NCBI RefSeq assembly: GCF_000948285.1
Contig: NZ_JYBP01000003.1
Location: forward strand, 3,100,001 to 3,164,000
Source: Geobacillus kaustophilus
GTDB taxonomy: Bacteria > Bacillota > Bacilli > Bacillales > Anoxybacillaceae
Length of the DNA stretch: 64,000 nt
Reading direction: 5' to 3'
Part shown: piece after piece, positions 5,536-31,137 of the stretch
Numbering within the stretch: position 1 is the first letter of the stretch
How the letters are laid out: each line of letters starts with the position of its first letter
The notes under the pieces: generated by a model
The model's input: the letters and a program-made list of their open reading frames with translations, nothing else
Told to the model about the DNA's origin: nothing
Database searches by the model: none
Position numbers and translations under genes: made by a program

Positions 5536-7494
5536 TCAACGGAAGATGGCGCGAAGGTCGTCGATGTAAATCGCCCCGGCGTTTTTCCGCCCCGCTTCCG
5601 TTTCCATATAGCGCACCGACACCTCCAGCATGAGCGGCAGTGCGACATCGTCAGGCACAGCGGCGCTCACATATTTCCAACCGGTCCAATCGACATGGCG
5701 GGCAAAATCGATCCAGATGCGGCGCCCGCTTCCATCCCGCAGCTGGGCGCGAAGCCAATGGCCGCTTCCGTCGCCGTACACCCACATACCGATCGTTTGC
5801 GGCCGCTTCGAAATCCAAATCGCTTCCTCCCGACTAGCGTAGACGCCGGATGTCCCTGGCATCCCGCGGAAATCGTATGAAATTTTCAGCGCCTGCTTTC
5901 CTTCTCTCACCTTCTCCATCGTCCGCTCGACCGCCGCAGACACATAGTTGACACCCGATGCATTCCACTTTGACTCCGTTTCAAAGTCGTCAAGCACTTC
6001 TTCGCTTTCCCCGTTCTCTTGCGTCTCTTTGTACACAACAAGAAGGGCATTCGAAACCGGACGCGCAAATCCATCAGACGGTTTGTTTTCGACTTTGAGC
6101 TGCCCGTTCGGCTGGCGGACGACAAATGTCGAAGACCCCCCGCCATCGAGCGTCATCGCATCAACCGCGCCTAGTTCATTCATCAGCTTGGCCATCTCGT
6201 TCAATGTCATTCCTTGGCTATGCGCAGGTTGACGGCCATCGACAACGACGAGCATGACGTTTCCGTTCTTGTCAATGCCGACCGCTGTGCGGGGATGCGC
6301 TCCGGCAATGGCGAACGACTGCACTTGCCCATTCGCCACCAACCGATAGCGGCCGCCAATCGCTTCTTTCACCCCGCTCCATTCGGGCTGGTCATACTGA
6401 AGAGAAATTTCCACTGCATCCCCTTCTTTCGCCTGCCGCAAATAGTCGCTCGCCCGGCCATGGCCCGACAACACGAGTTCTCCGGGTTGAAGCGATTCAT
6501 TGCCTTGACCAACCACCACTTTCTTCACCGTTCCGGTGACCGTTCCATTCCCGTTCAGCACCCCCTGCACATTCGTCAGCACGACTTCCATCCCAAGGGC
6601 ATTCGTTTTGGTGGAAGCGGCGAAATACGGGGTGTACAAAATCAACTGGTGGGCGCGCCGCGGCTTGTTGATGCCATCGACGGGGTATGCGTTTCCTTGT
6701 CCAATTCGAACGTGAATTTGGACATCTGGGTTTCCGATCATCGGCTTCCCATCAGCGCTGATCCCAAAAATCGTCCGTTCCACCGCCGGCGTCGTATTCG
6801 TCATCACGATTTCCCCGCGATGCACCATCAAATCGGTCGGTGAACCATGCTCTTTGAAATAATCGCCGTTCACCGCCGCCAGCACCGTCCCGTCGCGGCC
6901 GTCGTACCGCTCTGCCTGCTCAAGCACCGGCTCGATGCCAAGCACTTGATCATTGGACAGCGCCGTCTCAATGGCCAGCTTCTCATTGGACGTGTCAATG
7001 TCAAGCTTGTACACGTGCTGCTTGCCGCGTGTTCCCACAATTTCCATCTCTTCTTTTTCCACCCCAGGCGCCACGCGCGTCGACGACTCCTTCACCACTG
7101 TGCCGACCGCCAGCTGCTTCGCTCCGTACCGACCCGGATTGACAAGCTTCAACTTCTCTTTGGAGGGCGTTTTGTACAAAACGTACCCTTTCATGTTCGT
7201 GACGTAATACCCGCCGCCGACCCCGTATTGTCCCCCGAACGCTTCATCATACGAATACACCCGGTACTGTTCTCCAGGCTGCAGCACGCGGACAAACGTC
7301 AGCGCCCCGTTTTCCCGTTTCCATAGATTAATAGGTTTCACGATCTCCAGTTTTCCAATTTGCCCCTGCACAAGGCGCATGCCTTCCCAGTAGACAACGT
7401 TCGCCCCGGCGTCCGCTCCGGTTGCTTGCAACGCCGTCCATGTAGCCAACACAGCCCCGACCCCGATGCGGATGATGTTCTTCGTTCTTCCCAC
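5536..7494 (-). CDS. Secreted phosphodiester glycosidase (NAGPA-type) with N-terminal GQIG/YETPSK module
   Basis: 652 residues with a GTG start (GAGAGGAA upstream) and a signal peptide ending near TGADAG. Residues about 32-120 carry the island's shared module (YWEGMRLVQGQIGKLEI, YRVYSYDEAFGGQYGVGGG, YKTPSKEKLKLV). The catalytic domain follows (about 150-500), with NAGPA-family landmarks GDYFKEHGSPTDLMVHRG, HPRTAVGID and MTLDGGGSSTF. Homologues cleave phosphodiester-linked sugars or act in exopolysaccharide and teichoic-acid metabolism. The last about 150 residues form a beta-sandwich carbohydrate-binding-like domain (LDDFETESKW to YIDDLRAIF). Likely role is remodelling of surface polymers; the substrate is unknown. 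Confidence 0.85.
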   Translation of the reverse strand: MGRTKNIIRIGVGAVLATWTALQATGADAGANVVYWEGMRLVQGQIGKLEIVKPINLWKRENGALTFVRVLQPGEQYRVYSYDEAFGGQYGVGGGYYVTNMKGYVLYKTPSKEKLKLVNPGRYGAKQLAVGTVVKESSTRVAPGVEKEEMEIVGTRGKQHVYKLDIDTSNEKLAIETALSNDQVLGIEPVLEQAERYDGRDGTVLAAVNGDYFKEHGSPTDLMVHRGEIVMTNTTPAVERTIFGISADGKPMIGNPDVQIHVRIGQGNAYPVDGINKPRRAHQLILYTPYFAASTKTNALGMEVVLTNVQGVLNGNGTVTGTVKKVVVGQGNESLQPGELVLSGHGRASDYLRQAKEGDAVEISLQYDQPEWSGVKEAIGGRYRLVANGQVQSFAIAGAHPRTAVGIDKNGNVMLVVVDGRQPAHSQGMTLNEMAKLMNELGAVDAMTLDGGGSSTFVVRQPNGQLKVENKPSDGFARPVSNALLVVYKETQENGESEEVLDDFETESKWNASGVNYVSAAVERTMEKVREGKQALKISYDFRGMPGTSGVYASREEAIWISKRPQTIGMWVYGDGSGHWLRAQLRDGSGRRIWIDFARHVDWTGWKYVSAAVPDDVALPLMLEVSVRYMETEAGRKNAGAIYIDDLRAIFR

Positions 7495-7596
7495 TGGTCT
7501 TCTTTTCCTCTCTTTCTATCATTGTTGTTACAATCGATTCTATTATACGAAAAACTTCTACAAAAAGGGCATTATTTTCCATTTATTCTGCAAAAA

Positions 7597-7732
7597 GGCT
7601 CTTCACCAAAAGTTGTACTTGATTTTTTCTGAACATACCCTATTTACGCTTGTGAGGGAAAATCAGCACGTTTTGCATATCTTTGTGCAGGAAACCGTAT
7701 TGCTTGTCAAGTACATGTTGTGGTGAAGAGCC
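7597..7732. mobile_element. 136-bp MITE with ISL3-type ends and 8-bp target duplication
   Basis: The ends begin GGCTCTTCACCA and are inverted over about 26 bp with a few mismatches. Identical 8-bp direct repeats TGCAAAAA flank the element (7589-7596 and 7733-7740). The terminal GGCTCTT and an 8-bp duplication are typical of the ISL3 family. The interior has no gene. It lies about 100 bp upstream of the glycosidase gene. Confidence 0.8.
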
Positions 7733-7788
7733 TGCAAAAAAACGCCCGGCGGCGCCGGAACGTTCTTGAAACATGAAAAACCGTGCCA

Positions 7789-9021
7789 TTACGGGGTGTA
7801 AAACTCTTGAGAGTAGTAGGGTTGATGAAAGGAATTGAACGCCACCCCGACGCCAAGGCGGGTAAAGTCCGGGTATAAAAGATTTTGCCGATGCCCAAGC
7901 GAGTGCATCCACGCTTCATGGACAAAAATCGCATCGTATTGTCCGTAGGCGATGTTCTCCCCCGCCACCCGATAAACGATGCCATGGCGCTTCAGGCGGT
8001 CAAACGGCGACAATCCTTGCAAGTTCGTATGAGAGAAGTAGTGATGGATCGCCATATCTTCGCTATGTTGACGGGCGGCCGCCGCTGCCTTCGCATCCCA
8101 CGCGAGCGCCGGAAGTCGGTGCAAGCGGCGCGCAGCATTCGCCAGATCAAAAATTTGATATTCATAGGCCGTGCGCAGCTCCTCTGTCGGCGTTCCATAA
8201 AATCCAGGTTTTTCATCTTCCAGTGCACGATTCACCACCAGCACGCCATCGACCCGATTGTTGTCATACCGGTCATAAAAGAACGTGACATAGCGGCCAT
8301 TGACAAGATACGTATCGTACTCATCATTTTGGATGCTGTAAAGGCCATCCTTTTTTTGAATCGCCGCAAGCGCCCGGCCGTAGCGCGCTTCCACCACCGT
8401 TTTCGCTGTTCCGATGCCCGTTCCTTTTTTCGTTTGGACGATCGGCTGGTTCGTGTAAATCGCCGCCACCCGATCGCGGTCGTAGCTCACCATCAAAAAG
8501 TTTTTGTAACCACCTTGATCATACGTCCCCCAATATAAGCCGTAGGCGTTTTTCGTCTTCCTCTTTGCCTTGCCGTATATCGCTTCAACCTTGACGCGCG
8601 GGTCGCCGATGGCCACCCCGTTCATCGTGACATCAGCCAGGTGAGCCCTCGCCCGCTGCACACATAAAGCAGCGGTCAACTTCTCTTTTGACGGCGTTTC
8701 ATAGCGGATGCGGGCATCGTTCTTGATCGCATATCCTCCGCCGACATCGAAATAGCCGCCGCGCAACGCATACACGCGGTACACCGCGCCGCGCGGCAAC
8801 ATCTTCACTGCTTTGTTCGACAACCATAGCTCTGTCGGCGCTATGACCGTCAGTCGGCCGATTTGCCCGGGCTTCAGCTCAGCGCCGTCCCACCACACTT
8901 TTTCCGTTCCGACAAGCTCCCCGCAATCCTCCGCCTTGACCATTGGTGAACTCGGCATCAAAAGCCATCCGGCCGCAGCCAACAGCATTCTGATTGCCAC
9001 CGCCTGCACCCATTTTCTCAC
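7789..9021 (-). CDS. Secreted CAP/SCP-domain protein with N-terminal GQIG/YETPSK module
   Basis: 410 residues, GTG start with AAAGGAG 9 bp upstream, signal peptide at the N-terminus. Residues about 38-115 hold the shared module (WWDGAELKPGQIGRLTV, YRVYALRGGYFDVGGGY, YETPSKEKL). A middle region with repeats of the VTMNGVAIGDPRVKVEAIYG type matches CAP-associated domains, as in B. subtilis YlbC. The C-terminal CAP domain (about 285-410) keeps HSEDMA, YFSHTN, GENIAYG and HEAWMHSLGHRQNLL. Bacterial CAP proteins are extracellular with poorly known activity. The C-terminus FYTP is complete and the gene looks intact. Confidence 0.88.
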   Translation of the reverse strand: MRKWVQAVAIRMLLAAAGWLLMPSSPMVKAEDCGELVGTEKVWWDGAELKPGQIGRLTVIAPTELWLSNKAVKMLPRGAVYRVYALRGGYFDVGGGYAIKNDARIRYETPSKEKLTAALCVQRARAHLADVTMNGVAIGDPRVKVEAIYGKAKRKTKNAYGLYWGTYDQGGYKNFLMVSYDRDRVAAIYTNQPIVQTKKGTGIGTAKTVVEARYGRALAAIQKKDGLYSIQNDEYDTYLVNGRYVTFFYDRYDNNRVDGVLVVNRALEDEKPGFYGTPTEELRTAYEYQIFDLANAARRLHRLPALAWDAKAAAAARQHSEDMAIHHYFSHTNLQGLSPFDRLKRHGIVYRVAGENIAYGQYDAIFVHEAWMHSLGHRQNLLYPDFTRLGVGVAFNSFHQPYYSQEFYTP

Positions 9022-9144
9022 TTCCGCCCGCTCCTTTCTTTGTCTCTTTTTCTTTCATCATAGATGTCTTTCCATCAAAAGAAAAGAGAAAAAAGGTATC
9101 CATTCAGCCCAATGCTAGCGAGATTTTTAGAATCCAGCACCCAT

Positions 9145-9172
9145 AGGGCATTTCCCGTATCGAAAATGCCCT
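9145..9172 (-). terminator. Hairpin at the 3' end of the IS66 transposase gene
   Basis: AGGGCATTT and AAATGCCCT form a 9-bp stem overlapping the transposase stop codon. No long T-run follows, so it may be an element-end structure instead of a terminator. Confidence 0.45.
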
Positions 9173-10907: not shown

Positions 10908-11651
10908 ATGAAGATCATGAAAAAATTCCTAACAGTTTCAGCGCTAAGCGCCGGAATCCTTCTGTCACCATTTCACGCCCACGATGCGCAAGCAAAAGTT
11001 TGGTGGAATGGCATGGAATTAGTAGAGGGACAGATCGGCAAGTTGACCGTTTTAAAAGACACAGAGCTTTATAAGTTACAAGGAGAGAAGAAAGTTTACA
11101 TAAAAACGTTAAAAGCCGGTGGAGTCTACCGCATTTACACGTTTAAACCGGGCATGTTAGGGTTAGGCGGCGGATATTATGTCGATCGCGATACCCGGGT
11201 AAAATACGAAACTCCTTCCAAAGCGAAACTCAATCAAGTCAAAATGGAACAGCTGTTCCGTGGGGTAAAACTCGGCATGTCCGCTTCTCAAGTCAAGAAA
11301 TTGGAAACAGCGAAATTTCTCCTGCAAGAAAAGATAGACGGCGGCCAAGCCTGGGTCTACTCTACTTCTCTTTTCGGATATCATACGCTGCTCGTCTATG
11401 GATTTGAGAACGGAAAGCTGGCCTTCTACGGCTACTCATTCGATGCTGGACAGGAGTATACAAAAGATCAGCTCACCGCTATTTATAACAATCTGAAACA
11501 ACAGCTCATCACGCTATTCGGCAATCAGTATGAACAGTCCGATTCTGGACAAGGCTACCCGCCTGCACTCGCCTTTCACCATGACGGCCTTGTGATCGCT
11601 CTTTCCTACGATGCAGACGGGTTGGCTGTCACGGTCACTAGTGAACAATAA
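10908..11651 (+). CDS. Small secreted protein with GQIG/YETPSK module
   Basis: 247 residues with a GAGAGGAG site 8 bp before the ATG and a signal peptide ending at AQAKVWW. Residues about 28-105 are the shared module (WWNGMELVEGQIGKLTV, YRIYTF, LGLGGGYYV, YETPSKAKL). The remaining 135 residues include FRGVKLGMSASQVKKLE, a GMS-x-x-x-V-K pattern also seen in CAP-associated domains, but I cannot name the domain. It is the only module gene on the plus strand. A strong hairpin follows 10 bp after the stop. Confidence 0.75.
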   Translation: MKIMKKFLTVSALSAGILLSPFHAHDAQAKVWWNGMELVEGQIGKLTVLKDTELYKLQGEKKVYIKTLKAGGVYRIYTFKPGMLGLGGGYYVDRDTRVKYETPSKAKLNQVKMEQLFRGVKLGMSASQVKKLETAKFLLQEKIDGGQAWVYSTSLFGYHTLLVYGFENGKLAFYGYSFDAGQEYTKDQLTAIYNNLKQQLITLFGNQYEQSDSGQGYPPALAFHHDGLVIALSYDADGLAVTVTSEQ

Positions 11652-13279: not shown

Positions 13280-13607
13280 TTACTCCCCATTCACCAGCTT
13301 CAACTTCTCCTTTGACGGCGTTTCGTAGCGGATGTGCGTGTCGATGTCTGTCACGTAATACCCGCCGCCGACCGCGTACTGCCCGCCGAAGCGCGCGTCA
13401 TACCCATAGACGCGGTACACTTCCCCTGGCTTTAGGACGCGGACGAACACAAGGCGCCCATCCTTCGTCCGTTTCCATAGATTGATCGGCTTTTGCACCG
13501 TCAAGCGGCCGATTTGCCCTTTTTTCAGCTCCACGCCATCCCAGTAGACTTTTTTCGCCTGGCCTGGAGGAATGGTTGGCTTCTCTGGCTGCTTTGGCGG
13601 GTTGGAC
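13280..13607 (-). pseudogene. Truncated C-terminal GQIG/YETPSK module (gene remnant)
   Basis: Encodes the linker QPEKPTIPPGQAKK and a complete module ending KLKLVNGE, with no start codon or signal peptide. Homology to the nucleotidase and amylopullulanase 3' ends stops abruptly at 13607. The linker is nucleotidase-like while the last 25 codons match the amylopullulanase, so the fragment is a mosaic. It is probably the tail of a lost surface protein. Confidence 0.75.
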
Positions 13608-13759
13608 TCCCTATCTGAAGTATGCAGATTTCATGGCAATTATTGTAATGAAAAATACTCATCTACAGTTATCTAGTTTTTATCAGGCTCTCAGACATTG
13701 CTGTGCAATTCATTTCGTCTACCCTATGCTTTTCTAATTTTGGAGCTGTTGTCTTCTTA
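13608..13759. other. AT-rich junction without a gene
   Basis: Sequence composition changes here from GC-rich island DNA to the AT-rich toxin-antitoxin segment. No gene, terminator or clear repeat was seen. Confidence 0.5.
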
Positions 13760-16176: not shown

Positions 16177-19100
16177 TTACTCCCCATTCACCAACTTCAA
16201 CTTCTCCTTTGACGGCGTTTCGTAGCGGATGTGCGTGTCGATGTCTGTCACGTAATACCCGCCGCCGACCGCGTACTGCCCGCCGAAGCGCGCGTCATAC
16301 CCATAGACGCGGTACACTTCCCCTGGCTTTAGGACGCGGACGAACACAAGCCGCCCATCCTTCGTCCGTTTCCATAGATTGATCGGCTTTTGCACCGTCA
16401 AGCGGCCGATTTGCCCTTTTTTCAGCTCCACGCCATCCCAGTAGACTTTTTTCGCTTGGCCTGGAGGAGTGGTTGGCTTTTTCGGTTTCTCTTTTGGTTT
16501 CGATGGAGACGGTTTTTGCGGCGATGCTGATGGAGGTGCTCCGTTTCCCGGCGGAGCTGTGCCGCCCGGCGGAACGCTCCCCCCAGGGGATGTGCCATCC
16601 GATGGACCGCCGCTACCCGGAGAGGTGCCGTTGCCTGGTGTTGTCCCTCCGTCATGGGACGGCGTTTCGCTGCCCGGCCAACCGCTTCCTGGAGAATCGC
16701 CGTTGCTTGGCGGCGTTGTCAACGTCCCTTCGCGCAATTGCTTCGTTTCTAAATTCAGCACGTAATCTTTCGTGTTTTTCGCAATCGCTCCGCCGTCGTT
16801 GTTGAAAATGGCTGTTTTGCTTTCGGCCGATGGTTCGATATGGATCGACACTTCTTTTTGATGGTTGGCCGGCGCAAACGTGTACGAGAATGCCATCCGG
16901 CCATCAATCGGCACCCGCTCGCCATTGATCGTCAAAACACCGTTTTTAATGGCATTGCCCTTGATCGTCACTTGACTCCCTTGTTTTTGTACCTCTTCGA
17001 TGACGACCGGCATATCGATCCAGCGCAAAATACGGTCTTGCACAACCATCGTATTGTTTCCTTCATTGTGGACCGTCACTTTCAAATCGGTGCCAATCGA
17101 TCCGTAGCCGTAGTAGCTCACGTCATCATCGCCAACATCGTCACGCGTATGGTCAGCGAGCCCTTCCTGATCCCACGATCCGCCTTTCACATACTTATAG
17201 GTGATCGTTTCCCCTTCCTGCACCTCGACGGTAAATTGCCAATCGGGCGTCACCGCACCGTTGCGCGACATCTCCCACGCTCCTGTGTTCCAGCCGTTCA
17301 AGCTGTTCGGAATCGTAATTCGGGCATCCAACGGTGTGTAATCCGGCGCTCTCACTTTAAAAATGACTTTCACCATCACAATGTCCGGCGTCACCTTGAC
17401 CGTGTTCGACGCCACAACATTGCCGGCGCGGTCATACAACTTGACAACATACGTGTACTCGGTGCCGTTTTCGACATCGTAGTCTGTAAATGAATCGCCG
17501 ATCGAAGTGGTTGTATGCACGATATCACCGTTGCGGTCGATGGCTAACAAATAAGCATCCCCATCTTTTTTCCCAATAAACGTCCATGATAAATTCACTT
17601 GTCCCGATTCAACCGCAGGTTGCCGCAACTCGATGGCTTCCGCCGGCGCTATTTGGTCGCTGTTGTCTGCCGCAAACGTCACTTGCTTCTCTTCTGTATA
17701 CACCCACTCCTCGCCGAGGTTGGTCGTCAGCGCATAACGATACGTATACGTCCCTGCGGCAAGCGGAGTGAAGGCAGCTCGGAACACGTTGGCGTCGCCG
17801 TCTTGTCCTTGGTAAGCCGCTCTGTATTCTTTCCATGTTTCGTTATGGGGGCCTTTTACTTGCAACACCGCTTGCAACCCATCGGCTGCTCCTTTGCTTG
17901 TCACATTGTCGATGTTGACATTGACATCCACTTGCTGCGGTTTTGACAAATCCAGTGTGGCGTCGCTTAACGTTGTCACGAACTGGACATTGTCGCTCGT
18001 CAGCGGATAATGAGGAACGACGCGATTCGTTTCAACCTTCGGTGATTCATTCCCGTTTTCATCGACCGCCGCAACAGCAAAGTAATAGGCTGTTCCGTTC
18101 GTCAACGAACCGATCGTGGCCGAAGGTGTTTCCGTCTCTTGCACCATCGTATAACCGGCCCCTTTTAACGTGGACTCGTAAATTCGGTATTTCGGCGCAT
18201 TCCCTTCCCACGTTAACGTCACACGTCCATTCGAAGCGCTCGCCTGCAAATTTCTGACTGCTGCCGGCATTTCCGCCGTCACCGTTCCAAACATCATCCG
18301 TCCATCCAGGGCCGGAATCGTGACCGTCAACGTTCCGCTAGCGACCGTGGCTTTCCCGCCATCATGCAACTCATCCGTCAGCACGGTGCCGTTCGGAAGC
18401 AACGAAGCGACGTCAAGCGCCACCGTCTTGTCCTCATTGCCGCGGTTGACGGCAATGAGCGCCACTTCACGCCCGTATTGGCGGGCAAATACGTATACAT
18501 CCCCTTGCGCATACACCGTCTTGATGTCGCCATGGGCCAACAACAATTGATGATGCTGGCGAATGTGCCCCACTTTCTGATAATGGGCCAACAGATTTTG
18601 ATCTTCTTTGCCCCACGGATACGTGCGGCGGTTGTCCGGGTCTTTTGAGCCTGTTACTCCCGCTTCATCGCCGTAATAAATCGTCGGCGCTCCCGGGTAT
18701 CCCATCTGAAAAATCGCCGCCAGCTTGAGCCGCTTTTTCCCAAGTTCTTCATTATAATTCGGATCAAGCTCCGCCCGCTCGGATGAATCCGTTCCGTTCC
18801 CAAGCAGAAAGACCGCCCGCGCCGTGTCATGCGAACCAATTAAGTTCATCAGCGCATAAAACGCTTCACTTGGGTAGTCTTCCCGTATGGCCGTCAGCCG
18901 TTTGTCCGCCTCTTCTGCATTTCCGTTTTTCAAAAAGTCAAGCACCGCCCCGCGGAACCGGTAGTTCATCACAGAATCGTACTGGTCGCCTAGAAAATAT
19001 TTCGATGCGTCATCCCAAATTTCCCCTAAAATGAGCGGCTGCTCCCCCTCTTTTAACGTCGGACCGCGGTCGTACGACCCTTGAAGCAATTCTTGGCGAA

Positions 19101-21123
19101 ACTCGCGCCAAAACGCCGGATCCACCTCATTGGCCACATCCAACCGCCAGCCGGAGGCGCCGCGGGCAATCCAGCTTTTCGCCACTGAATCCGATTCACG
19201 GAAAATGTAATTCGCGAGCGCATCGTTGTTCAATTCACTCGGATGCGGCACTTTCTCCCCCGTCACTGACTTAAACTCCGGCAGGCTGTCATAGCCCCAC
19301 CATGATTGGTATTTATAATGGCCATCGACTTTTTCGTTTTCAATATTGAACCAAAGGTGAAACCCATACGGACTGAACGTCTGCCCCTCTTGTTTGAACT
19401 TCTCTTCCGCTTGTTTCCGCGCTTCCTCCTCGCTCACTCCTTTTTCATTCATCAAATCGTAAACCGCTTCCCAGTATTCATACGCGCCAACGGTCGGATA
19501 GCGGTGATAGCGGTCAAAGTAAATCGAATCGTCGGATACGTGGTTGAACACCCCGTCTAAGATGAGATGCATCCCCCGGTTCGCAAGCGCCTGCACAAAC
19601 GATTGGAATTCTTCCGGAGAACCGAACATCGGATCCAATTCTTTGTAATTGCTCGCATCATATTTATGGTTCGATGGCGCATTGGCGATCGGATTTAAGT
19701 AAATCGTGTTCACCCCAAGCGACTGCAAATAATCCAACTTTTGTTCAATTCCGGCGATGTCTCCGCCGAAAAAGTCATTCGACCATTCGCCGTCGCCCTC
19801 GTAGCCGCTCGTCCCTTTCAGGCGCGGATTATCGGGCAAATCCGACCAATCGCGATGCTCAATCGGCTGCACCCCGCGTGCCTGCTGCTTGCTGTTGTCA
19901 TTTGAAGGGTTGCCGTTAAAGAACCGATCCGGGAAAATTTGATACACAACCGCTTCTTTCATCCAATCCGGTGTTTTGTAATTCGGATCATAAACGGTCA
20001 GCTGAAACAGCTCCGCATTTTTGTCGAACGCCCTCCCCCATTGTCCTTCTTTCGCATCTTCGCCATATTCCGCCTTCATCCCGGCATCGACAGCGATAAA
20101 TTTATAACCGTATATCCCCGGCGCAGAAGGGGTGAACGCGGCCTCCCAATATTCATCATCCCCGAGCACGCCGACTTTTTCCATCGTGTAGACTTTGGCG
20201 GTTCCGGTCGTCGCATTTTTCACATACACATCCGCTTTTGTCAAATCGCCTTTTTTCGCCGCAAGACGAAGCGTCACCTTCGTTCCCGCTTTCACCGCGC
20301 CAAACGGCTGGCGGTACAGCGCATCCCATGTATTGTGTTTTAACCGGTCTTTCTGAACAACACCGTCAGAGCCATTGGGGCTGTAGTCGGTGTACACCTC
20401 TTTTGTTTTCGCATTGAAGAAGAATGTAATGGTCGTCGTTTCCAAAACGTTTAAGCGTGCATTCTCTTGTGGGTAGCTCTCATTCCAATTGTTCCCGAGG
20501 GCAATTTTATATTCATACGATCCTTTCGGCACCTGCGCCGTAAACGTGTACACCGAGTCAAAATCATCATCGGTCAACAGCGCAGTCGATGTCCCTGGGG
20601 TCCATCCGTTGTTCTCCCCCTCATAGCCGATGGCCGGCAGCACCGTCCCGACAAGACGCGGCTGTTTCTCCTTCGCAATCGCCGTATACCATGTCGAATC
20701 AGCGATCGCATGCGTCCGATCATTATAGTAAAACGTCACGTCCGTTTGCCGATCCAGTTTCAACACCAGATTTGCGCCATTGCGGCCACCGGCGCCGTAA
20801 TTTTCATCCCAACTGCCGTTGACCGCAATTTTGTACTCATAGGTCCCGGCTGGCAGCGTCCCGGTGAATGTATAAAGCCCATTCCCTTCATCATGCATCC
20901 TCGTCGCCAATGCCGCCGGATCCCATTCCTTCGTATGGCCCAACTCATCTTGCAACGTGCCGACAAGCGTGATTGTTCGCTCAGACGAAGCAGCCATGCC
21001 AGCGGCTGACAGTTTCCCTCCGTTTCCATAAGCAACGGCAGCTGAATAGAATGGGGAAAAGACCAACCACACTGCCGCCACAAGCCATCCCACCCGTCTC
21101 CTCATCAACCGTCGTTCTTTCAA
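16177..21123 (-). CDS. apu: Secreted amylopullulanase (type II pullulanase, GH13) with C-terminal GQIG/YETPSK module
   Basis: 1648 residues, TTG start with AGAGAGGTG 9 bp upstream, signal peptide ending near AVAYG. Order: two starch-binding CBM-like repeats (about 45-240), a CBM34-like N-domain (about 265-385), the GH13 core (about 390-900) with VFNHVSDD, GWRLDVANEVD (nucleophile D), ILGEIWDD (acid E) and IGSHDTAR, two fibronectin III domains, a CBM20-like domain (about 1250-1370), a long Gly/Ser/Pro linker, and the shared module at about 1568-1648. It hydrolyses alpha-1,4 and alpha-1,6 bonds of starch and pullulan. The C-terminal module replaces the SLH domains seen in some homologues. It is divergent from amyS across a region with catabolite-control sites. 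Confidence 0.93.
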   Translation of the reverse strand: MKERRLMRRRVGWLVAAVWLVFSPFYSAAVAYGNGGKLSAAGMAASSERTITLVGTLQDELGHTKEWDPAALATRMHDEGNGLYTFTGTLPAGTYEYKIAVNGSWDENYGAGGRNGANLVLKLDRQTDVTFYYNDRTHAIADSTWYTAIAKEKQPRLVGTVLPAIGYEGENNGWTPGTSTALLTDDDFDSVYTFTAQVPKGSYEYKIALGNNWNESYPQENARLNVLETTTITFFFNAKTKEVYTDYSPNGSDGVVQKDRLKHNTWDALYRQPFGAVKAGTKVTLRLAAKKGDLTKADVYVKNATTGTAKVYTMEKVGVLGDDEYWEAAFTPSAPGIYGYKFIAVDAGMKAEYGEDAKEGQWGRAFDKNAELFQLTVYDPNYKTPDWMKEAVVYQIFPDRFFNGNPSNDNSKQQARGVQPIEHRDWSDLPDNPRLKGTSGYEGDGEWSNDFFGGDIAGIEQKLDYLQSLGVNTIYLNPIANAPSNHKYDASNYKELDPMFGSPEEFQSFVQALANRGMHLILDGVFNHVSDDSIYFDRYHRYPTVGAYEYWEAVYDLMNEKGVSEEEARKQAEEKFKQEGQTFSPYGFHLWFNIENEKVDGHYKYQSWWGYDSLPEFKSVTGEKVPHPSELNNDALANYIFRESDSVAKSWIARGASGWRLDVANEVDPAFWREFRQELLQGSYDRGPTLKEGEQPLILGEIWDDASKYFLGDQYDSVMNYRFRGAVLDFLKNGNAEEADKRLTAIREDYPSEAFYALMNLIGSHDTARAVFLLGNGTDSSERAELDPNYNEELGKKRLKLAAIFQMGYPGAPTIYYGDEAGVTGSKDPDNRRTYPWGKEDQNLLAHYQKVGHIRQHHQLLLAHGDIKTVYAQGDVYVFARQYGREVALIAVNRGNEDKTVALDVASLLPNGTVLTDELHDGGKATVASGTLTVTIPALDGRMMFGTVTAEMPAAVRNLQASASNGRVTLTWEGNAPKYRIYESTLKGAGYTMVQETETPSATIGSLTNGTAYYFAVAAVDENGNESPKVETNRVVPHYPLTSDNVQFVTTLSDATLDLSKPQQVDVNVNIDNVTSKGAADGLQAVLQVKGPHNETWKEYRAAYQGQDGDANVFRAAFTPLAAGTYTYRYALTTNLGEEWVYTEEKQVTFAADNSDQIAPAEAIELRQPAVESGQVNLSWTFIGKKDGDAYLLAIDRNGDIVHTTTSIGDSFTDYDVENGTEYTYVVKLYDRAGNVVASNTVKVTPDIVMVKVIFKVRAPDYTPLDARITIPNSLNGWNTGAWEMSRNGAVTPDWQFTVEVQEGETITYKYVKGGSWDQEGLADHTRDDVGDDDVSYYGYGSIGTDLKVTVHNEGNNTMVVQDRILRWIDMPVVIEEVQKQGSQVTIKGNAIKNGVLTINGERVPIDGRMAFSYTFAPANHQKEVSIHIEPSAESKTAIFNNDGGAIAKNTKDYVLNLETKQLREGTLTTPPSNGDSPGSGWPGSETPSHDGGTTPGNGTSPGSGGPSDGTSPGGSVPPGGTAPPGNGAPPSASPQKPSPSKPKEKPKKPTTPPGQAKKVYWDGVELKKGQIGRLTVQKPINLWKRTKDGRLVFVRVLKPGEVYRVYGYDARFGGQYAVGGGYYVTDIDTHIRYETPSKEKLKLVNGE

Positions 21124-23231: not shown

Positions 23232-25559
23232 TTACCATCCATTTACTTGCTTCAACTTTTCCTTCGATGGAGTTTCGTAGAGGATATAGGCATTGATGTT
23301 TGTCACGTAATACCCGCCGCCGACCGCGTACTGCCCGCCGAAGCGCGCGTCATACCCATAGACGCGGTACACTTCCCCTGGCTTTAGGACGCGGACGAAC
23401 ACAAGGCGCCCATCCTTCGTCCGTTTCCATAGATTGATCGGCTTTTGCACCGTCAAGCGGCCGATTTGCCCTTTTTTCAGCTCCACGCCATCCCAGTAGA
23501 CTTTTTTCGCTTGGCCTGGAGGAATGGTTGGCTTCTCTGGCTGCTTTGGCGGGTTGGGCTTTTCTTCCTTCCAAAGCGGCAAGGCAAATTCATATTGGGC
23601 AAATCCGCTCGGCAAGGCGGTGACATAGCGGATGCTGCCGTCTTGAGGCAAGTGTTTTTGTGCTTCCGGCGACGATTCAAAGGAAACCGTCACCGGTGCT
23701 TTTCCTTTCACCGGCGCAAACTGCCAGTTGCCATCCGCCGACGGGTTGATCGTTCCGTTTTCCCGAATGTAATCGATGATCACTTGCCGGTTTTCATCCG
23801 GCGCGGCCAAAATCGTGTTTTTCCCGCCCGGATTGATGATCCGGTTCGTCGTCGCCCGATAGTTGTTCGTTGCGACGATAAATTCCATGTTCGGCGTCAC
23901 TGGCTTGCCTTCGAATTTCAAGTTTTTAATCCGGTTCGCGTTCGGATGGATCACATTTTGGTTTTTGTCGTATTTCGCCGGTTCGGTCACATCGATTTCA
24001 TACGTTACGCCGTCAATAATATCGAAGTTGTACGTTGGGAAGTCATTGTTGACGAGCGGCTGAACGTCTGTCTTGTTCGGGTCAATTTGGTTGAATTGCC
24101 CCGCCGACCACTCAAGCCATTCTTTCAACTCGGCTCCCGTAATTTTCAGCGCATACACCGTGTTCGGATACAAGTACAAATCGGCGACGTTTTTAATGGC
24201 GATTTCCCCTGCCGGGATGTCGGTATAATAGCTCGCCCCGCCGCGTCCGCCTGCTTTGAACGGAGCGCCGGCCGACAGCACCGGAAGGCCTTCATATTTC
24301 GTCCCTTTCAACATCTTTTCGACATACCATTTTTGCGCGTTCGTGACGATTTGCACCGACGGATCGTCTTTTATGAGTGCAAAATAACTGTTGATCGGGC
24401 TCGTCGTTTTCCCAACCGGGCTGCGGACGTACTGAATCGTCGCTTCATGTTCCGCCTGGATCGCCTGCTCAACAGCCGGGTCGCTGTCGACAAGCGGCGT
24501 TTTCGTCGCCTTGTCATACACTGGACGGAGTTGGGCTTTCGCTTGCGTCACTTTCCATTTTCCGTCGACTTGCTCGACCGTCAAGTCGATCACGCCGAGC
24601 GTATCGCCCCATGAACCCGGCATCGTCACTGGAACACCGTTAATCGTTCCGGTTTCATTGTTGATTCCGTTTCCGTCCGGAAAATCTGGTGTCGTGCCTG
24701 GAAGGGCCGGGAATTTTTTATGCTGGTGGCCGGTCAACACGGCGTCGACCCCCGGAATTTGCGTCAAATAATACGATGCATTTTCCATGTTCGGGCTGTT
24801 TCCGCCTGTCTCAATGCCCGAGTGCGATAGCACGACGATCAAATCGGCCCCTTCCGCTTTCATTTTTGGAATATACTTTTGCGCCGACTGCACAATGTCT
24901 TTCGCAATCACTTTCCCTTGCAAATTCGCTTTGTCCCAATCCATAATTTGCGGCGGCACAAAGCCGATGACGCCGATCTTCAGCGTATGTTTCTCCCCGT
25001 CTTCATCAACGACTTCTTTCTCTAAAATTTGATACGGCGTGAAATAGTTGACATCGTTATCCGGATTTTGATCATGATCGTCACGGTACACGTTCGCATT
25101 CACGATCGGCAGCTTGGCATCGTCATACACTTCATTGAGGAAATCCAAGCCGTAGTTGAACTCATGGTTCCCAACCGTTGCCGCATCGTACTTCAACAAG
25201 TGCAGCAACTTCACCGCCGGATGCACTTCTCCGTCTTGCAGCGGCTTCACTTTGGCCACATAGTCGCCAAGCGGAGTTCCTTGAATCAAATCCCCGTTGT
25301 CAAACAGAAGCGTATTCGGCTGCTCAGCGCGCGCCAGCTCGATCAAACGCGCCGTTTTCGACAACCCGAACTCATTCGTCGGACTGTCTTTGAAATAATC
25401 GTAGTTGACGAGATTCATATGTACATCCGTCGTCTCTAAAATGCGTAGCTTGACGACATCTCGGTTTTCCGCGCCCGCTGCTGTCGGCAACACAACCGGA
25501 GCAAGCAGCCCCAACGCCAACACCACGCTCGCCGCTGAGTATTTCTTCCGTGTTTTCAA
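23232..25559 (-). CDS. Secreted 2',3'-cyclic-nucleotide phosphodiesterase / nucleotidase with C-terminal GQIG/YETPSK module
   Basis: 775 residues, TTG start (GAGGGGG 7 bp upstream), signal peptide ending at TAAGAENRD. The metallophosphatase domain (about 35-330) shows ETTDVHMN, FDNGDLIQGTP, VGNHEFNYG, VLSHSGIE and LTGHQHK. The 5'-nucleotidase C-terminal domain (about 355-610) includes APFKAGGRGG and ATNNYRA. This is the CpdB/YfkN family, which scavenges phosphate and nucleosides outside the cell. The last about 80 residues are the shared module after a Pro-rich linker (NPPKQPEKPTIPPGQ). Most of that module's DNA is nearly identical to the amylopullulanase copy. Confidence 0.9.
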   Translation of the reverse strand: MKTRKKYSAASVVLALGLLAPVVLPTAAGAENRDVVKLRILETTDVHMNLVNYDYFKDSPTNEFGLSKTARLIELARAEQPNTLLFDNGDLIQGTPLGDYVAKVKPLQDGEVHPAVKLLHLLKYDAATVGNHEFNYGLDFLNEVYDDAKLPIVNANVYRDDHDQNPDNDVNYFTPYQILEKEVVDEDGEKHTLKIGVIGFVPPQIMDWDKANLQGKVIAKDIVQSAQKYIPKMKAEGADLIVVLSHSGIETGGNSPNMENASYYLTQIPGVDAVLTGHQHKKFPALPGTTPDFPDGNGINNETGTINGVPVTMPGSWGDTLGVIDLTVEQVDGKWKVTQAKAQLRPVYDKATKTPLVDSDPAVEQAIQAEHEATIQYVRSPVGKTTSPINSYFALIKDDPSVQIVTNAQKWYVEKMLKGTKYEGLPVLSAGAPFKAGGRGGASYYTDIPAGEIAIKNVADLYLYPNTVYALKITGAELKEWLEWSAGQFNQIDPNKTDVQPLVNNDFPTYNFDIIDGVTYEIDVTEPAKYDKNQNVIHPNANRIKNLKFEGKPVTPNMEFIVATNNYRATTNRIINPGGKNTILAAPDENRQVIIDYIRENGTINPSADGNWQFAPVKGKAPVTVSFESSPEAQKHLPQDGSIRYVTALPSGFAQYEFALPLWKEEKPNPPKQPEKPTIPPGQAKKVYWDGVELKKGQIGRLTVQKPINLWKRTKDGRLVFVRVLKPGEVYRVYGYDARFGGQYAVGGGYYVTNINAYILYETPSKEKLKQVNGW

Positions 25560-26997: not shown

Positions 26998-27462
26998 TTA
27001 AATCCCTAATTGAAGTTCGTGTACAGTATATTTGCTTTTTGTCACAACTCCCGGGTTCCGCAATGTTTCATGCACTTTCTCATTATACAAGCGAACGTTT
27101 TCATTCATGACCTTCCACTCAACCGACCGTTGATGGCAAAACCCATCGTTATCATTGTCAAGATGTTTCACGTAGCGATAGGGGCCGACGATCCCGATGC
27201 TGAGCAATGCTCCATTACGAACCAACACGATATCCCCTTGTTCCATCGTGTTTACAAATGCCCAGATCGCGCCAAGAGCGTTGCCAAGCTTCGCCCCCGA
27301 ATAATGGTACACGTTGCGCAATCGCTCTCTCAATTCATCTTTGCTTATGCCGTCCAAATTGCCAATCAGCGGCCAACCAATCCCAATGACCTGGTCACGA
27401 ATAAATTCGTCGTACCGCTGAAACCCATGCGGTTTTGTTTTGATTTGAAATACATGCGCCAT
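26998..27462 (-). CDS. Small PUA/EVE-like domain protein of unknown function
   Basis: 154 residues, ATG with GGGGGATTAGG upstream, no signal peptide. The pattern IGIGWPLIGNLDGISKDELR, then IWAFVNTMEQGDIVLVRNG and LSIGIVGPYRYV resembles PUA-superfamily (EVE-like) domains that often head restriction or other defence nucleases. Here the domain stands alone. It lies next to a broken gene and several insertion sequences, so it may be the surviving part of a defence locus. The family call is by eye. Confidence 0.5.
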   Translation of the reverse strand: MAHVFQIKTKPHGFQRYDEFIRDQVIGIGWPLIGNLDGISKDELRERLRNVYHYSGAKLGNALGAIWAFVNTMEQGDIVLVRNGALLSIGIVGPYRYVKHLDNDNDGFCHQRSVEWKVMNENVRLYNEKVHETLRNPGVVTKSKYTVHELQLGI

Positions 27463-27543
27463 TCCTAATCCCCCGTTTCCCTTTCAACCTCCGCCTTAGC
27501 CACACCGTCCCATCCATCGAAAAGCGACAGGCACGTAACCATT

Positions 27544-27967
27544 TCAACTTCTTGCATGCTTCTTAAGAACGGCAGTAATCGCCTCAATCGTTTCTTTGGC
27601 GGCATCCGTCAACGCTTCAAACTTAAAGGCTATCGACTGGGCGCTTGGATTGATGGACGGGCCTTCGTTTTGATCTCTGCGAAACGCGGTGATCGCCTCT
27701 AAGTCTTGTTTGAGGCCATCCGGAAGCGACGCTCGTTCGAACCTCCAACTGACGATATGGGGCTCTTTCGTTGCGTAATCGTTGCTTCCTTCATAATTGT
27801 ATGGCCCCGATGCGCTTCTTTCCTTTCTCGGAAGCCGTATCATTCATAAACAACTGCACTGTTTGTTTCGCATTGCCATCACATAAATGCAAGCCTGCTT
27901 CCATCGATTTGTTTGCAATCAAATGAAAAATGGGTGCAACGGCAAAGGGGTACTCGAGCACCTTCAT
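27544..27967 (-). pseudogene. Frameshifted unknown gene
   Basis: An ATG at 27967 with AAAGGAGA opens a 58-residue frame (MKVLEYPFAVAPIFHLIANK ...) that stops at 27791. A second frame, shifted by one base, runs from 27843 to 27544 (99 residues ending IEAITAVLKKHARS) and looks coding. The two overlap and probably come from one gene broken by a frameshift. Neither half is recognised. The upstream leader is homologous, in inverted orientation, to the leader of the IS982 copy at 29340. Confidence 0.4.
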
Positions 27968-27976
27968 CTTTTCGTC

Positions 27977-28097
27977 TCCTTTCTAATGTTAGGTGAGCAC
28001 TTTCATTCTAAAAGGAGATTTTCATACAAGGACTATTTTTATGTTCGTCTGATTTTATCTATATAAATGCACCTTGAAAAGTTAACTTTTCGATTAC
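27977..28097. repeat. Left arm of about 118-bp inverted repeat around IS630
   Basis: Aligns with the reverse complement of 29221-29340 along its whole length by eye, about three quarters identical. Longest shared blocks are GCACTTTCATTCTA, CTATTTTTATG and ATCTATATA, and the inner end holds AAGTTAACTTT of the IS630 terminus. Confidence 0.7.
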
Positions 28098-28633
28098 GCG
28101 GAACACCCCAAGCGCCGCAACACTTCCTCCGGGCGTTCCTGAATGTAATGAGCAAATCGTTGAACCGCTTGCAGGATCTCGTGGCGGTCTTTGTGAAAGG
28201 CGTTGGCGATCACCGTATCCTTCAGCCATTTCCACAAACGCTCGATCGGGTTGAGCTGCGGCGAGCAGGGCGGCAGATACAGGAAATGAAAACATTGTCC
28301 TTCTTCTCGCAAAAAGTCCTTCACCATTCGAGCGTGATGAATCCGGGCATTGTCCAAGACGAGCGCAATGATCCGGTTGGGATGCCGCTCTTTGAGCAGG
28401 CGCAAGAAATCCAAGAATGTCGCGGCGTTGGCGGCTTCTGCTTGGTGAAGCACGATGTCCCCATCGTGGACGTTCACCGCGCCAAATACCGAAACATGGG
28501 CATGATGGCCGAATGTCGGCACACGTTTTTGACGGCCGACCTCGGACCAAGTGGATCGCAAGACATGATAAGAGCGGATATGCGTTTCATCGATGTACAG
28601 AAGAACGGCATCTTCTGTCTCCTTGGTGATCAA
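28094..28633 (-). CDS. IS630-family transposase, catalytic part
   Basis: Carries the DDE core of IS630/Tc1-like enzymes: LLYIDETHIRS, ALVLDNARIHHA and YLPPCSPQLNPIERLWKWLK. It begins in the -1 frame relative to the N-terminal frame and shares the A8 slippery run at 28635-28642. Fusion by -1 frameshifting gives DLIKK-NLITKETED, the normal order for this family, so both parts together are probably functional. Confidence 0.9.
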   Translation of the reverse strand: MITKETEDAVLLYIDETHIRSYHVLRSTWSEVGRQKRVPTFGHHAHVSVFGAVNVHDGDIVLHQAEAANAATFLDFLRLLKERHPNRIIALVLDNARIHHARMVKDFLREEGQCFHFLYLPPCSPQLNPIERLWKWLKDTVIANAFHKDRHEILQAVQRFAHYIQERPEEVLRRLGCSA

Positions 28634-29160
28634 GTTTTTTTTATCAAATCCATTTGCTTTTCAAATTGCTTTTGCTCATCCGGATTCCCTTTCGCCAGCG
28701 TGTACGCAGGGCGAGTCCATGACAGACCTTGACGGTGCAGGAGTTTTCGCAGCGCTTCACGGGAAAGGCAAACACCAAAGTGCTTTTCGACATAGGATTG
28801 CAGGAGTTTGGTGTTCCACGCCGAAGCGGCGTCCCAGCCCAGTTCCGCGGGAGTGGCGGTCAACACAAGCTGTTTGATCTCTTCCTGCTGTTCTTCGGTA
28901 AGAAACGGCTCCCGTCCGGGGGCGAAATCCCGATGAAGCAAGAGCTCCAGACCGCCTTCGTTGAACAGCGGCACATAATGGGAAACGGTTTGTTGGCACA
29001 CGTTGACCATGGAGGCCGCCTCTTTGCCCAAATAACCTTCCATGACCAAGCGAACGGCCATCACCCGTTGGCGAAGAAGCGCGTTTTTGATTTTCCGTTC
29101 CTGTTTGCGAAGCGTCCGTGGCGTCCATCCGTGATCATGGGTGATGTTGAGACGTTTCAT
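28630..29160 (-). CDS. IS630-family transposase, N-terminal DNA-binding part
   Basis: 176 residues with a helix-turn-helix region: RQRVMAVRLVMEGYLGKEAA, then VNVCQQTVSHYVPLFNEGGLE, and a second winged-helix-like segment. A ribosome-binding site (AGGAAACC/AAAAGGAGCGGG) precedes the ATG. It stops right after an A8 run where the catalytic frame takes over. Confidence 0.88.
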   Translation of the reverse strand: MKRLNITHDHGWTPRTLRKQERKIKNALLRQRVMAVRLVMEGYLGKEAASMVNVCQQTVSHYVPLFNEGGLELLLHRDFAPGREPFLTEEQQEEIKQLVLTATPAELGWDAASAWNTKLLQSYVEKHFGVCLSREALRKLLHRQGLSWTRPAYTLAKGNPDEQKQFEKQMDLIKKT

Positions 29161-29220
29161 GAATGATCCCGCTCCTTTTCCATAGGTTTCCTTGGGAACA
29201 GGATAACCGGAGTGTGCACC

Positions 29221-29340
29221 GGTTATACGAAAGTTAACTTTTTAATGAGCATGTATATAGATGAAATCCGACAAGCATAAAAATAGCCCTTGCCTGCGGA
29301 TCTCCTGTAGAATGAAAGTGCCAACAAACACTCGAAAGGA
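29221..29340. repeat. Right arm of about 118-bp inverted repeat around IS630
   Basis: Partner of 27977-28097. Its outer part is also the leader and ribosome-binding site of the IS982 transposase copy. Confidence 0.7.
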
Positions 29341-29348
29341 GAATCCCC

Positions 29349-30214
29349 ATGCAAGAGCACTTTCATTTTACTACAGATCAAGCCAAACTGCAAAAACAAT
29401 ATGCCGCCATTTTCTGTTTTGTTTCTGCCCAACTGTCGTTGATTCAAATGTATCTTCATCGCCGCAGCCGTCACTTGGTCAAGCAAGAAGACGAAGTGGT
29501 CATAGCGGTTCACCTTTTGGGGAAGCTGCTGGGCTTTTCTTCCGAACGAACCTGGCATCGCTTTGTCACGGGCAATTGGTCCCCCATGGTCGTCGATTTC
29601 TTGAACGGTCCCGGTATAACCGACGCTGCCGGGCGCTTGGCTTTGCGGTCAAATGGATCCGTCATGAAACGGGCGAAACGCGGCCAGCATCATGCTTAGG
29701 CCATCGTCGACAGTTTGCCCCTCCCGTTGTGCCATCCCGCAAGAATGCAACGCGTGAAGCGATTTCGAGGGATCGCAGATATGGGGTATTGTGCTTCCAA
29801 AAAACAATGGTGCTACGGATTCAAATTGCATCTTCAAGTGACGGATCAAGGGCTGCCCATGGGCTATGTCGTGACGGAAGCGTCTTGCCGCGGCGTCAAA
29901 GCGGCCGAAACGGTGATGACCCAAATCCCTCATCCCCGCAACATGGGAGACAAAGGATGCATCAGCCGTGCTCTTCGGGAAAAACTGTACGAAAAACACC
30001 GGGTCGCGTTTTGGACACCATCCCGACACAATCCAAAACACCACTCATCCGACACATGGGAAGAATGGATCAAGAAAAAACGCAAAGGCGATTCTCGTGG
30101 ATCAATACCGGATCAACCGACATTCGGGCGAATTCCGTGGCCGGGTTTGAGGTGGCGCTCGATGGCATCTTGTTGGTGTATTCCCTGGTCACACTAGAGC
30201 TAGTTGAGCGCTAG
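29349..30214 (+). pseudogene. IS982-family transposase, multiply frameshifted
   Basis: The N-terminal frame (MQEHFHFTTDQAKLQKQYAA ..., to 29699) is followed in another frame by the catalytic part (LCHPARMQRVKRFRGIADMG, KKQWCYGFKLHLQVTDQG, MGDKGCISRALREKLYEK). The conserved end (TDIRANSVAGFEVALDGILL, VYSLVTLELVER) sits in a third frame. At least three frameshifts separate the pieces, so this copy is dead. The start has GAAAGGAG upstream. Confidence 0.85.
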
Positions 30215-30225
30215 CGCTCAACTAG
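30200..30225 (+). terminator. 26-bp perfect palindrome at the IS982 3' end
   Basis: The half-site CTAGTTGAGCGCT is repeated perfectly in inverse. T6 follows 10 bp later. It contains the transposase stop codon and likely terminates plus-strand transcripts. Confidence 0.65.
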
Positions 30226-30240
30226 CACCACAGGTTTTTT

Positions 30241-30351
30241 AGAGAATATGGCGTTGAAATTATTTCCATCAATGGCGGCATTGATATGAATATGCTGGAA
30301 ATCAGAATGTTAGAACGATATTTTTGCAGATTAATGGGTTTCGTTTTGTAA
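30241..30351 (+). pseudogene. Possible coding remnant
   Basis: In-frame REYGVEIISINGGIDMNM then LEIRMLERYFCRLMGFVL and a stop. No start codon or upstream frame. Looks like the tail of a gene cut by the IS982 insertion; not recognised. Confidence 0.25.
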
Positions 30352-30357
30352 AAAACA

Positions 30358-31137
30358 TCAATCGTTTTTCTTCACCGTGACGTTCATCGGTTGGCCGAGC
30401 GCCATTTTGACGACGTCATAGCGGCCGTCCAAGTACAAATCAAGAAAGTGGAACTGGCCTGAAAATTGTTCCGGGCTGTTCGTGATGGAAAATTGCAGCT
30501 GCATTTGGTAATCTCTGCTGTTGGCAAGCTGCTCGGCAATTTTTTCGATTTCGTCTTTCGGCACATTGTACGCCTTCAAGTAAGAGATCGAATCGGCAAT
30601 GGCCTCAACATTGTCGTTAAAGTAAATATCAAGCGTCACAGTGGAGTCGCTGATGCGCCCTTCGATCGGCAAGGACATATTTTTGCCGTATAAGTACCAG
30701 CCAAACAGACGGCTGCCTTTTTGCCGCTCGATGACAAACAGGACGGATTCATTTCCTGCCTGCAGAATGTACTGCCCTTTCAATGAGCGGGTGACAAGGG
30801 CGAGAAGCTCGTCTTTTGTGAACGGCACGTACTGGATGGCGTCCCCTTGTTTGGCATACAGCCCGCCGCCGAGGCTGTAATAGACGGCGCCGCCTGCCCG
30901 TTTTTGGCTGTAGACGCGATACTCGCGCCCTTGTTTCGCTGTCATGGCGGGCTGCCATGTCGTTCCGTTCAGGCGGTACAGGGACGTGTCGCGCAAAATG
31001 ACGACTTTGCCGATCATCCCTTGTTTCCATTGGACTTGCCCCCATTGGACGGCGGCGTCAGCCGTTTGCCCATTTCCTCCGAGGGCGATGGCGGCGGCGA
31101 GGCAGACGGCGGCCGCCATTCGCGATGCATGCTTCAT
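30358..31137 (-). CDS. Secreted protein with divergent GQIG/YETPSK module
   Basis: 259 residues, ATG after GAGGAGGAA, signal peptide ending near TADAAVQW. The module at about 30-108 is the most divergent copy: WKQGMIGKVVILRDTSLYRL, YRVYSQK, YSLGGGLYAK, YVPFTKDEL. The C-terminal 150 residues are beta-rich (LFGWYLYGKNMSLPIEGRI; MQLQFSITNSPEQFSGQ) and not recognised. It lies 43 bp downstream of the NlpC/P60 gene on the same strand, so the two are likely co-transcribed and act at the wall. Confidence 0.7.
   Translation of the reverse strand: MKHASRMAAAVCLAAAIALGGNGQTADAAVQWGQVQWKQGMIGKVVILRDTSLYRLNGTTWQPAMTAKQGREYRVYSQKRAGGAVYYSLGGGLYAKQGDAIQYVPFTKDELLALVTRSLKGQYILQAGNESVLFVIERQKGSRLFGWYLYGKNMSLPIEGRISDSTVTLDIYFNDNVEAIADSISYLKAYNVPKDEIEKIAEQLANSRDYQMQLQFSITNSPEQFSGQFHFLDLYLDGRYDVVKMALGQPMNVTVKKND

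Follow-up and report, generated by a model that had tools for sequence, protein, structure and literature searches.

A basic SH3-like module of secreted proteins beside secA2-slaP in Geobacillus kaustophilus, a probable wall anchor used in place of SLH domains

In a 64,000-nucleotide stretch of the Geobacillus kaustophilus genome (NZ_JYBP01000003.1, its largest contig, positions 3,100,001 to 3,164,000; hereafter the window), six secreted proteins and one gene remnant encoded beside secA2-slaP have in common a module of about 85 amino acids. We consider it likely that this module is a non-covalent wall anchor to an acidic, non-pyruvylated diacetamido-mannuronate polymer, and that it belongs with SecA2/SlaP to a cassette that replaces SLH domains and CsaB. 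Anchoring, as the predicted function, is very probable; the diacetamido-mannuronate polymer is probably the ligand. Anchoring is supported by the fold and the basic charge of the module, by the unrelated enzymes that carry it, by the replacement of SLH repeats in homologues, and by its presence on phage endolysins. A sequence-only reading of the window had proposed either anchoring or export recognition, and these observations favour the former and not the latter.

With a profile built on the six intact copies, seven places in the 3.68-Mb genome score E<1e-33, all inside 24 kb, and beyond those there is a single chance-level place (E=0.36); these are the same seven copies that the sequence-only reading had located near secA2-slaP. 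If the places are taken as independent, the odds of such clustering are ~5e-13, but duplicated copies are not independent, so the figure shows only that the places are not scattered. As that reading also had it, the module directly follows the signal peptide in four proteins (genes 5536, 7789, 10908, and 30358) and forms the very end, after a proline-rich linker, of the amylopullulanase, the nucleotidase, and the remnant at 13283-13630. Each window carrier has one copy. Domain matches bear out the unrelated partners (NAGPA, CAP, GH13, and metallophosphatase/5'-nucleotidase), and SLH (PF00395) has no match in the carriers, nor anywhere else in the genome at E up to 0.001; the signal peptides and the absence of LPXTG in the carriers were judged by eye. 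The landmarks, which had been called fixed, are only partly so when the seven sequences are read by eye: YR[VI]Y and a GGG followed by Y within two residues occur in 7/7 copies, GQIG[RK]L in six, and exact W-x-G-x-E-L and YETPSKxKL in five each. The 30358 protein has the most divergent copy and departs from most of them, and we read the landmarks as family traits, not constants.

The AlphaFold2 model of the nucleotidase copy (pLDDT 95.3) has ten short strands and a C-terminal helix. When it is compared with known structures (VIA-align ranking), SH3b rows lead the list, and similar folds in the ranking include the peptidoglycan-binding lysostaphin SH3b and the lipoteichoic-acid-binding SlpA. 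The model has the SH3-like beta barrel of the SH3b superfamily, which agrees with the likeness to SH3b that was to be checked, as well as the SH3-like fold of the SlpA teichoic-acid-binding motif; its predicted fold is that of bacterial SH3 domains (SLAP/SlpA-like). The module is basic in charge. Over the window modules, the curated families of NCBIfam and Pfam give chance-level matches only (lowest E=0.09), PHROGs gives a single match (E=0.083, in one of the six modules), and a PDB sequence search with the six copies gives none, and a known-domain reading of these copies was rejected. No window carrier matches PF03217 (SLAP/SlpA; 0/6) or a curated SH3 model of Pfam at E up to 1. We also aligned 76 modules from a wider set (the alignment omits the representative L093:18901-19218, and two intact near-copies replace the window remnant). 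Four of these match PF03217 at E up to 1, three of which were traced, and at least one of the 76 exceeds the gathering cut-off of 23 bits, at 23.9; a module of the 30358 type in genome G015 (L106:4060-4338) passes the Pfam SlpA cut-off. SH3_3 is found in two of the 76 wider-set proteins, both phage tail proteins that we treated as cross-hits. The module had been described as unnamed, which holds for the window, where it has no curated match, but the wider set places it at the edge of the SLAP/SlpA family.

Homologous enzymes bear SLH repeats in related genomes. In an SLH-type Geobacillus (G023), a gene ~8 kb from that genome's secA2 encodes a homologue of the window amylopullulanase, 88% identical to it over a 226-residue stretch of the C-terminal part that the two have in common; three SLH repeats close this protein at the position that the module has in the window one. 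Masking both anchors shows a corresponding C-terminal swap in GDSL lipases (37-39%, partly between species of one genus, g92), NlpC/P60 proteins (48-59%), and subtilases (43-45%); in NAGPA proteins (about 30%) the two anchors are at opposite ends.

We found the module in 17 of 41 genomes of the same GTDB family and in 42 of 397 genomes sampled across the order. These counts exclude weak matches in G018 and G331 to phage tail GpU proteins with SH3_3, the former of which had been an eighteenth match in the family. Its partners include NAGPA, CAP, GH13, nucleotidase, GDSL lipase, transglutaminase, GH18, subtilase, NlpC/P60, LysM, glucosaminidase, L,D-transpeptidase, peptidase C39, M23, PdaC, and SpoIID, some of which sit on divergent module copies, and some genomes have at least 10-13 copies. 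Unrelated partner enzymes in such number are the pattern shown by anchors.

Directly upstream of secA2, the window's genome has a polymer cluster that encodes a TagO/WecA-type transferase, an aminotransferase, an oxidoreductase, a hexapeptide acyltransferase, a nucleoside-diphosphate-sugar (NDP-sugar) dehydrogenase, a 2-epimerase, a flippase (by eye), a polymerase, and glycosyltransferases. The epimerase matches UDP-2,3-diacetamido-2,3-dideoxy-glucuronate 2-epimerase at E=4e-130, far closer than classical UDP-N-acetylglucosamine (UDP-GlcNAc) 2-epimerases such as 1o6c (E=1.5e-42); 4neq, labelled UDP-GlcNAc 2-epimerase, is intermediate (1e-103), and NCBIfam TIGR00236 names the protein UDP-GlcNAc 2-epimerase. 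WbpE is among the best matches of the aminotransferase, and the best PDB matches of the oxidoreductase and the acyltransferase are an oxidoreductase without a specific name and QdtC, respectively. We take the cluster genes to correspond to WbpA, B, D, and I and to the pathway that these form, and the cluster is a putative source of a diacetamido-mannuronate polymer. SbsC-type S-layer proteins of G. stearothermophilus interact with a polymer that contains GlcNAc, glucose, and diacetamido-mannosamine uronic acid (PMC8559796), and SLH strains have a pyruvylated wall polymer (PMC2571106). For strain NRS 2004/3a of G. stearothermophilus, a 1999 paper names, in its title, a polymer with diacetamidodideoxyuronic acid.

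Outside the window's genome, the WbpB-like gene alone represents the pathway, which these genomes may have in full. In the family, slaP is found in 37 of the 41 genomes (E up to 1e-10), 36 of which reach the cut-off; in G013 it is in two pieces at contig ends. All 16 that also have a WbpB-like gene have the module, five or fewer SLH matches, and a strong SbsC-type match (PF18058, E<1e-15), and none has CsaB over the cut-off. The 21 slaP-bearing genomes without it include one with the module (G011), and all have at least ten SLH matches; CsaB is over the cut-off in 16 and at E<1e-49 in the other five, and a strong SbsC-type match is found in none. Weaker PF18058 matches (E 1e-6 to 1e-7) occur in four other family genomes, and three genomes with a WbpB-like gene and no slaP (G018, G021, G037) lack the module. 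In the order sample, core modules (best E below 1e-27) occur in 15 genomes, all among the 22 whose WbpB homologue is at least 65% identical, as against 0/375 others (Fisher p=3e-22). Every one of the 16 genomes that combine slaP with such a homologue has the module, three of them (G154, G370, G371) as divergent copies only, which are C-terminal and in tandem where seen. Among the 156 slaP-bearing genomes, SLH richness (at least eight SLH matches, with counting capped at 17) is found in 0/13 core carriers vs 110/143 others (p=3e-8). Because the genomes are not independent, these p-values overstate the association, and better evidence comes from the SlaP tree and from contrasts within genera: both wall types occur inside g1, g92, g47, g54, and g80, although the g54 module genomes have no full slaP and the g80 module genome has divergent copies only.

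The genes next to the carriers match the SecA2 (TIGR04397) and SlaP (TIGR04399) families, as the sequence-only reading had named them. The link between module and secA2/slaP that it drew holds for a main group and is not general. In 16 slaP-bearing genomes with a close WbpB homologue, from seven GTDB families, the nearest module is 0.2-7.9 kb from slaP, with a chance expectation of ~3-5% per genome. Among the other 14 slaP-bearing carriers, two have a module ~19 kb from slaP (G068, G240), nine have it on other contigs or >100 kb off, and three could not be placed. The 40 SlaP proteins whose loci were available (31 of them from the family, the other nine from the rest of the order) form a tree with two sides, one of 15 module rows and one of 23 SLH rows plus G011 and G154, both with support 100/100, and the window SlaP belongs to the lineage common to the other module-type genomes. 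The tree has several long branches, and its split crosses genus lines: a tree that keeps all ten Geobacillus rows together is rejected (approximately unbiased test, p=1.5e-9), and one that groups the 16 module rows, with G154 among them, is not (p=0.08). SlaP is thus divided by wall type and not by genus, which indicates that this accessory secretion protein moves together with the wall type.

Phages provide a further context. The C-terminal domain of a lysin is usually its wall binder, and in the Psychrobacillus phage PVJ1 the module is at the C-terminus of an amidase lysin encoded beside a holin (44% identity, E=9e-11). PVJ1 is one of two among 50,697 records with a match; the other, Perkons, has a partial one in a tail tape-measure protein. 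Two viral contigs also have the module at the C-terminus of lysin-like proteins, one with Amidase_2 (L179) and one beside a holin (L178), whose N-terminal part matches no Pfam family. In G027, two proteins of a prophage-like stretch bear it: a tail lysozyme and an Amidase_2 protein whose gene comes after an XhlA-like one (below its family cut-off). In L180 we found a tape-measure-like protein with M23 and glucosaminidase domains. The place of the module at lysin C-termini lends independent support to wall anchoring.

Three other readings of the module were weighed. It could be a wall anchor that binds peptidoglycan or a teichoic-acid-like phosphate polymer, with the diacetamido-mannuronate link a result of hitch-hiking in the cassette. 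We consider this unlikely, even though the similar folds of lysostaphin SH3b and SlpA have such ligands, some SH3b domains bind peptidoglycan, and module copies, mostly divergent but in G011 a core copy, occur in genomes without a WbpB-like gene: in the order sample, core copies are confined to genomes with a close WbpB homologue, and among slaP-bearing genomes the module is distributed opposite to SLH richness, which is unexpected for a peptidoglycan ligand. The module could also bind the S-layer lattice and not a wall polymer. In G028 and G026, the 30358-type carrier gene is followed by one for an S-layer protein with the SbsC-type domain, which we take to be the domain of SLH-free Geobacillus S-layer proteins, and within the family the module goes together with strong SbsC-type matches. 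The alignment of the window to both genomes, however, ends at 30,235, and transposase-like genes (by eye) occupy 28059-30235, where the S-layer gene sits there. Against that S-layer protein, the window's genome has only a weak best match (E=2e-6, the short 4018-4758 protein), and eight other module genomes of the genus that were searched have matches at E below 1e-110. It seems that the S-layer gene was lost from the window strain, and since the six carriers of this strain are intact, we argue that the ligand is the wall; the module on phage endolysins also speaks against the lattice, which is very improbable as the binding partner.

The last of these readings, an export-recognition signal for SecA2/SlaP, fits the tight slaP linkage of the main group and the SlaP lineage that matches the module genomes, and yet we regard it as highly improbable. 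The module is C-terminal in several carriers, the carriers have ordinary-looking signal peptides (by eye), slaP is missing (at E<1e-40) from 12 of the 42 carrier genomes, and phage lysins bear it. Moreover, 127 of the 156 slaP-bearing genomes lack the module, with SLH proteins in the same role in most of them, which leaves export recognition unsupported; slaP is much wider than the module, and the two cannot be equated.

Several observations weigh against a single wall anchor tied to one polymer and to SecA2/SlaP. Twelve of the 42 carrier genomes have no slaP at E<1e-40, so carriers do occur free of secA2/slaP, but mostly with few and divergent copies (one or two copies in 11 of the 12, divergent copies only in ten). 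Four SLH-rich genomes of family f44 (G177, G294, G353, G409) each contain four divergent copies, and in other genomes too the pattern is broken by divergent copies. The core module of G011, on an M23 peptidase, is in an SLH genome without a WbpB-like gene. Finally, at least six genomes have a 54-64% WbpB homologue within 30 kb of slaP and no module, and the rule that WbpB implies the module was rejected.

As a wall anchor, the module would act as follows. A carrier would be exported by its ordinary signal peptide, perhaps with selective help from SecA2/SlaP, and would fold outside the cell. Its basic SH3-like domain would then dock on an acidic, non-pyruvylated secondary wall polymer, presumably with 2,3-diacetamido-2,3-dideoxy-mannuronic acid as the recognised sugar, and keep the enzyme at the surface, doing the job of three SLH repeats in relatives with a CsaB-pyruvylated polymer. 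The polymer pathway, SecA2/SlaP, and the carrier genes would form one wall-type cassette exchanged between species. At about even confidence, we extend this to a broader proposal, in which Bacillales swap two whole surface cassettes, CsaB with pyruvylated polymer, SLH, and an SLH-type SecA2-SlaP on one side, and diacetamido-mannuronate polymer, SbsC-type S-layers, the module, and its own SlaP on the other; each secretion lineage would be adapted to the anchor class of its own side, and the lysins of phages of the second side would bear the module. If true, Bacillales have a further way, beside SLH and SbsC-type domains, to hold secreted enzymes, tied to one type of polymer. The role of SlaP would become testable, with a tree that tracks wall type rather than genus, the module would be a candidate single-domain display tag for thermophiles, and the wall type could be guessed from a genome.

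Several known systems resemble the one proposed. The SLAP/SlpA domain (PF03217) has a similar SH3-like fold and is likewise basic (isoelectric point of the SLAPTAG, 9.92; PMC10293925), and it too occurs on surface proteins that are not S-layer proteins (PMC11181022). Window carriers, however, have one copy where SlpA has two, and the module hosts are Bacillales with a putative uronic-acid polymer. The phosphate-binding motif of SlpA-type domains, YxY....KxxN (PMC11181022), is found, as a loose pattern, in only 8/76 modules, three of them in the window. The SLH/CsaB system shares homologous enzymes, several with the anchor at the same terminus, and the same kind of secA2-slaP locus, but the SLH domain has an unrelated helical fold (PMC8559796), usually comes in three copies, and has the opposite distribution in the family. 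The N-terminal anchor of SbsC/SgsE occurs in the same genomes as the module; it is helical and found on S-layer and related proteins, whereas the module is mainly beta, is borne by enzymes, and has no PF18058 match in its carriers. The SH3b domains of endolysins and lysostaphin are alike in fold class and in their C-terminal position on amidases, and differ in the Pfam SH3 models, none of which recognises the window carriers. HMMA of G. stearothermophilus ATCC 12980 (Ferner-Ortner-Bleckmann 2009) is, by its title, reportedly an amylase with three binding regions for wall components, and the likeness is one of title. It is treated as distinct from the amylopullulanase found with amyS (PMC4428132). 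The phage endolysin LysBT1 is also a lysin with a host-type surface anchor, in that case an SLH domain with demonstrated binding to cells (PMC12285257); the phage proteins here have the module in its place.

The fold class and non-covalent anchoring are already known. What is new, as far as the literature searched goes, is that a module of this kind substitutes for SLH, goes with a single set of polymer genes, and is matched by a SlaP lineage and found on phage lysins; that search, which left out subscription papers (the HMMA paper among them), found no description of the module or of a cassette swap.

The features of the locus are listed in Table 1.

Table 1. Genes of the secA2-slaP locus and the module copies they encode (window positions)
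Feature	Position	Strand	Evidence
secA2, 3' part (gene cut by window start)	2..1459	+	TIGR04397 E=3e-215
slaP, accessory Sec S-layer assembly protein	1498..2400	+	TIGR04399 398.9 bits, cut-off 250
Short secreted protein with SbsC-type domain	4018..4758	-	PF18058 E=1e-25
NAGPA-type phosphodiester glycosidase carrier	5536..7494	-	PF09992 E=2e-44; N-terminal module 7138-7395, E=4e-40
CAP-family carrier	7789..9021	-	PF14504, PF00188; N-terminal module 8671-8901, E=4e-34
247-aa carrier, no Pfam partner (chance-level match only, E=0.09)	10908..11651	+	N-terminal module 10995-11246, E=5e-38
Remnant: linker and module only, no start, no enzyme	13283..13630	-	Module 13286-13552
GH13 amylopullulanase carrier	16177..21123	-	PF00128; C-terminal module 16183-16449, E=1e-42
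2',3'-cyclic-nucleotide 2'-phosphodiesterase/3'-nucleotidase carrier	23232..25559	-	NF006938 over cut-off; C-terminal module 23238-23504, E=5e-42
259-aa carrier, no Pfam partner	30358..31137	-	N-terminal module 30799-31053, E=1e-34

The remnant is probably the 3' end of a decayed carrier gene, and a transposase gene (by eye) adjoins it. Except for the last ~60 bases of the nucleotidase copy, the C-terminal copies at 13283-13630, 16180-16530, and 23235-23585 are near-identical in DNA, which suggests recent duplication or gene conversion. An AbiEi/AbiEii toxin-antitoxin pair (PF13338, PF08843; 13760-15279) is encoded inside the carrier cluster. Near the cluster, at 35091-36674, a sortase gene (PF04203) adjoins a gene for a putative secreted protein without a Pfam match, which has a C-terminal hydrophobic stretch and a basic tail (by eye); these two may form a covalent anchoring pair of their own. 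The region before the polymer cluster (L110:12-4670, by eye) has genes for an amidase with SH3b-like repeats, an SH3b-like protein, and a SpoIID/LytB-like protein; the repeats resemble ordinary SH3b repeats (by eye), and the module profile does not find them.

Elsewhere, genes adjoining those of the Geobacillus prophage-like stretch (L116, G027:C1:1475001-1495000) resemble pieces of nucleoside phosphorylase (by eye). Where scanned, the divergent modules of f44 genomes (L075-L079, L081-L084) belong to a PdaC-like protein (L077) and to a SpoIID protein (L084); they are few per genome and not near slaP where both can be placed, and their ligand may differ. Two proteins of 887-888 aa start with two modules (L140:10823-13486 in G392, a protein with no clear Pfam partner, and L141:11510-14170 in G295), and the module could be the anchor of these as S-layer or propeller proteins.

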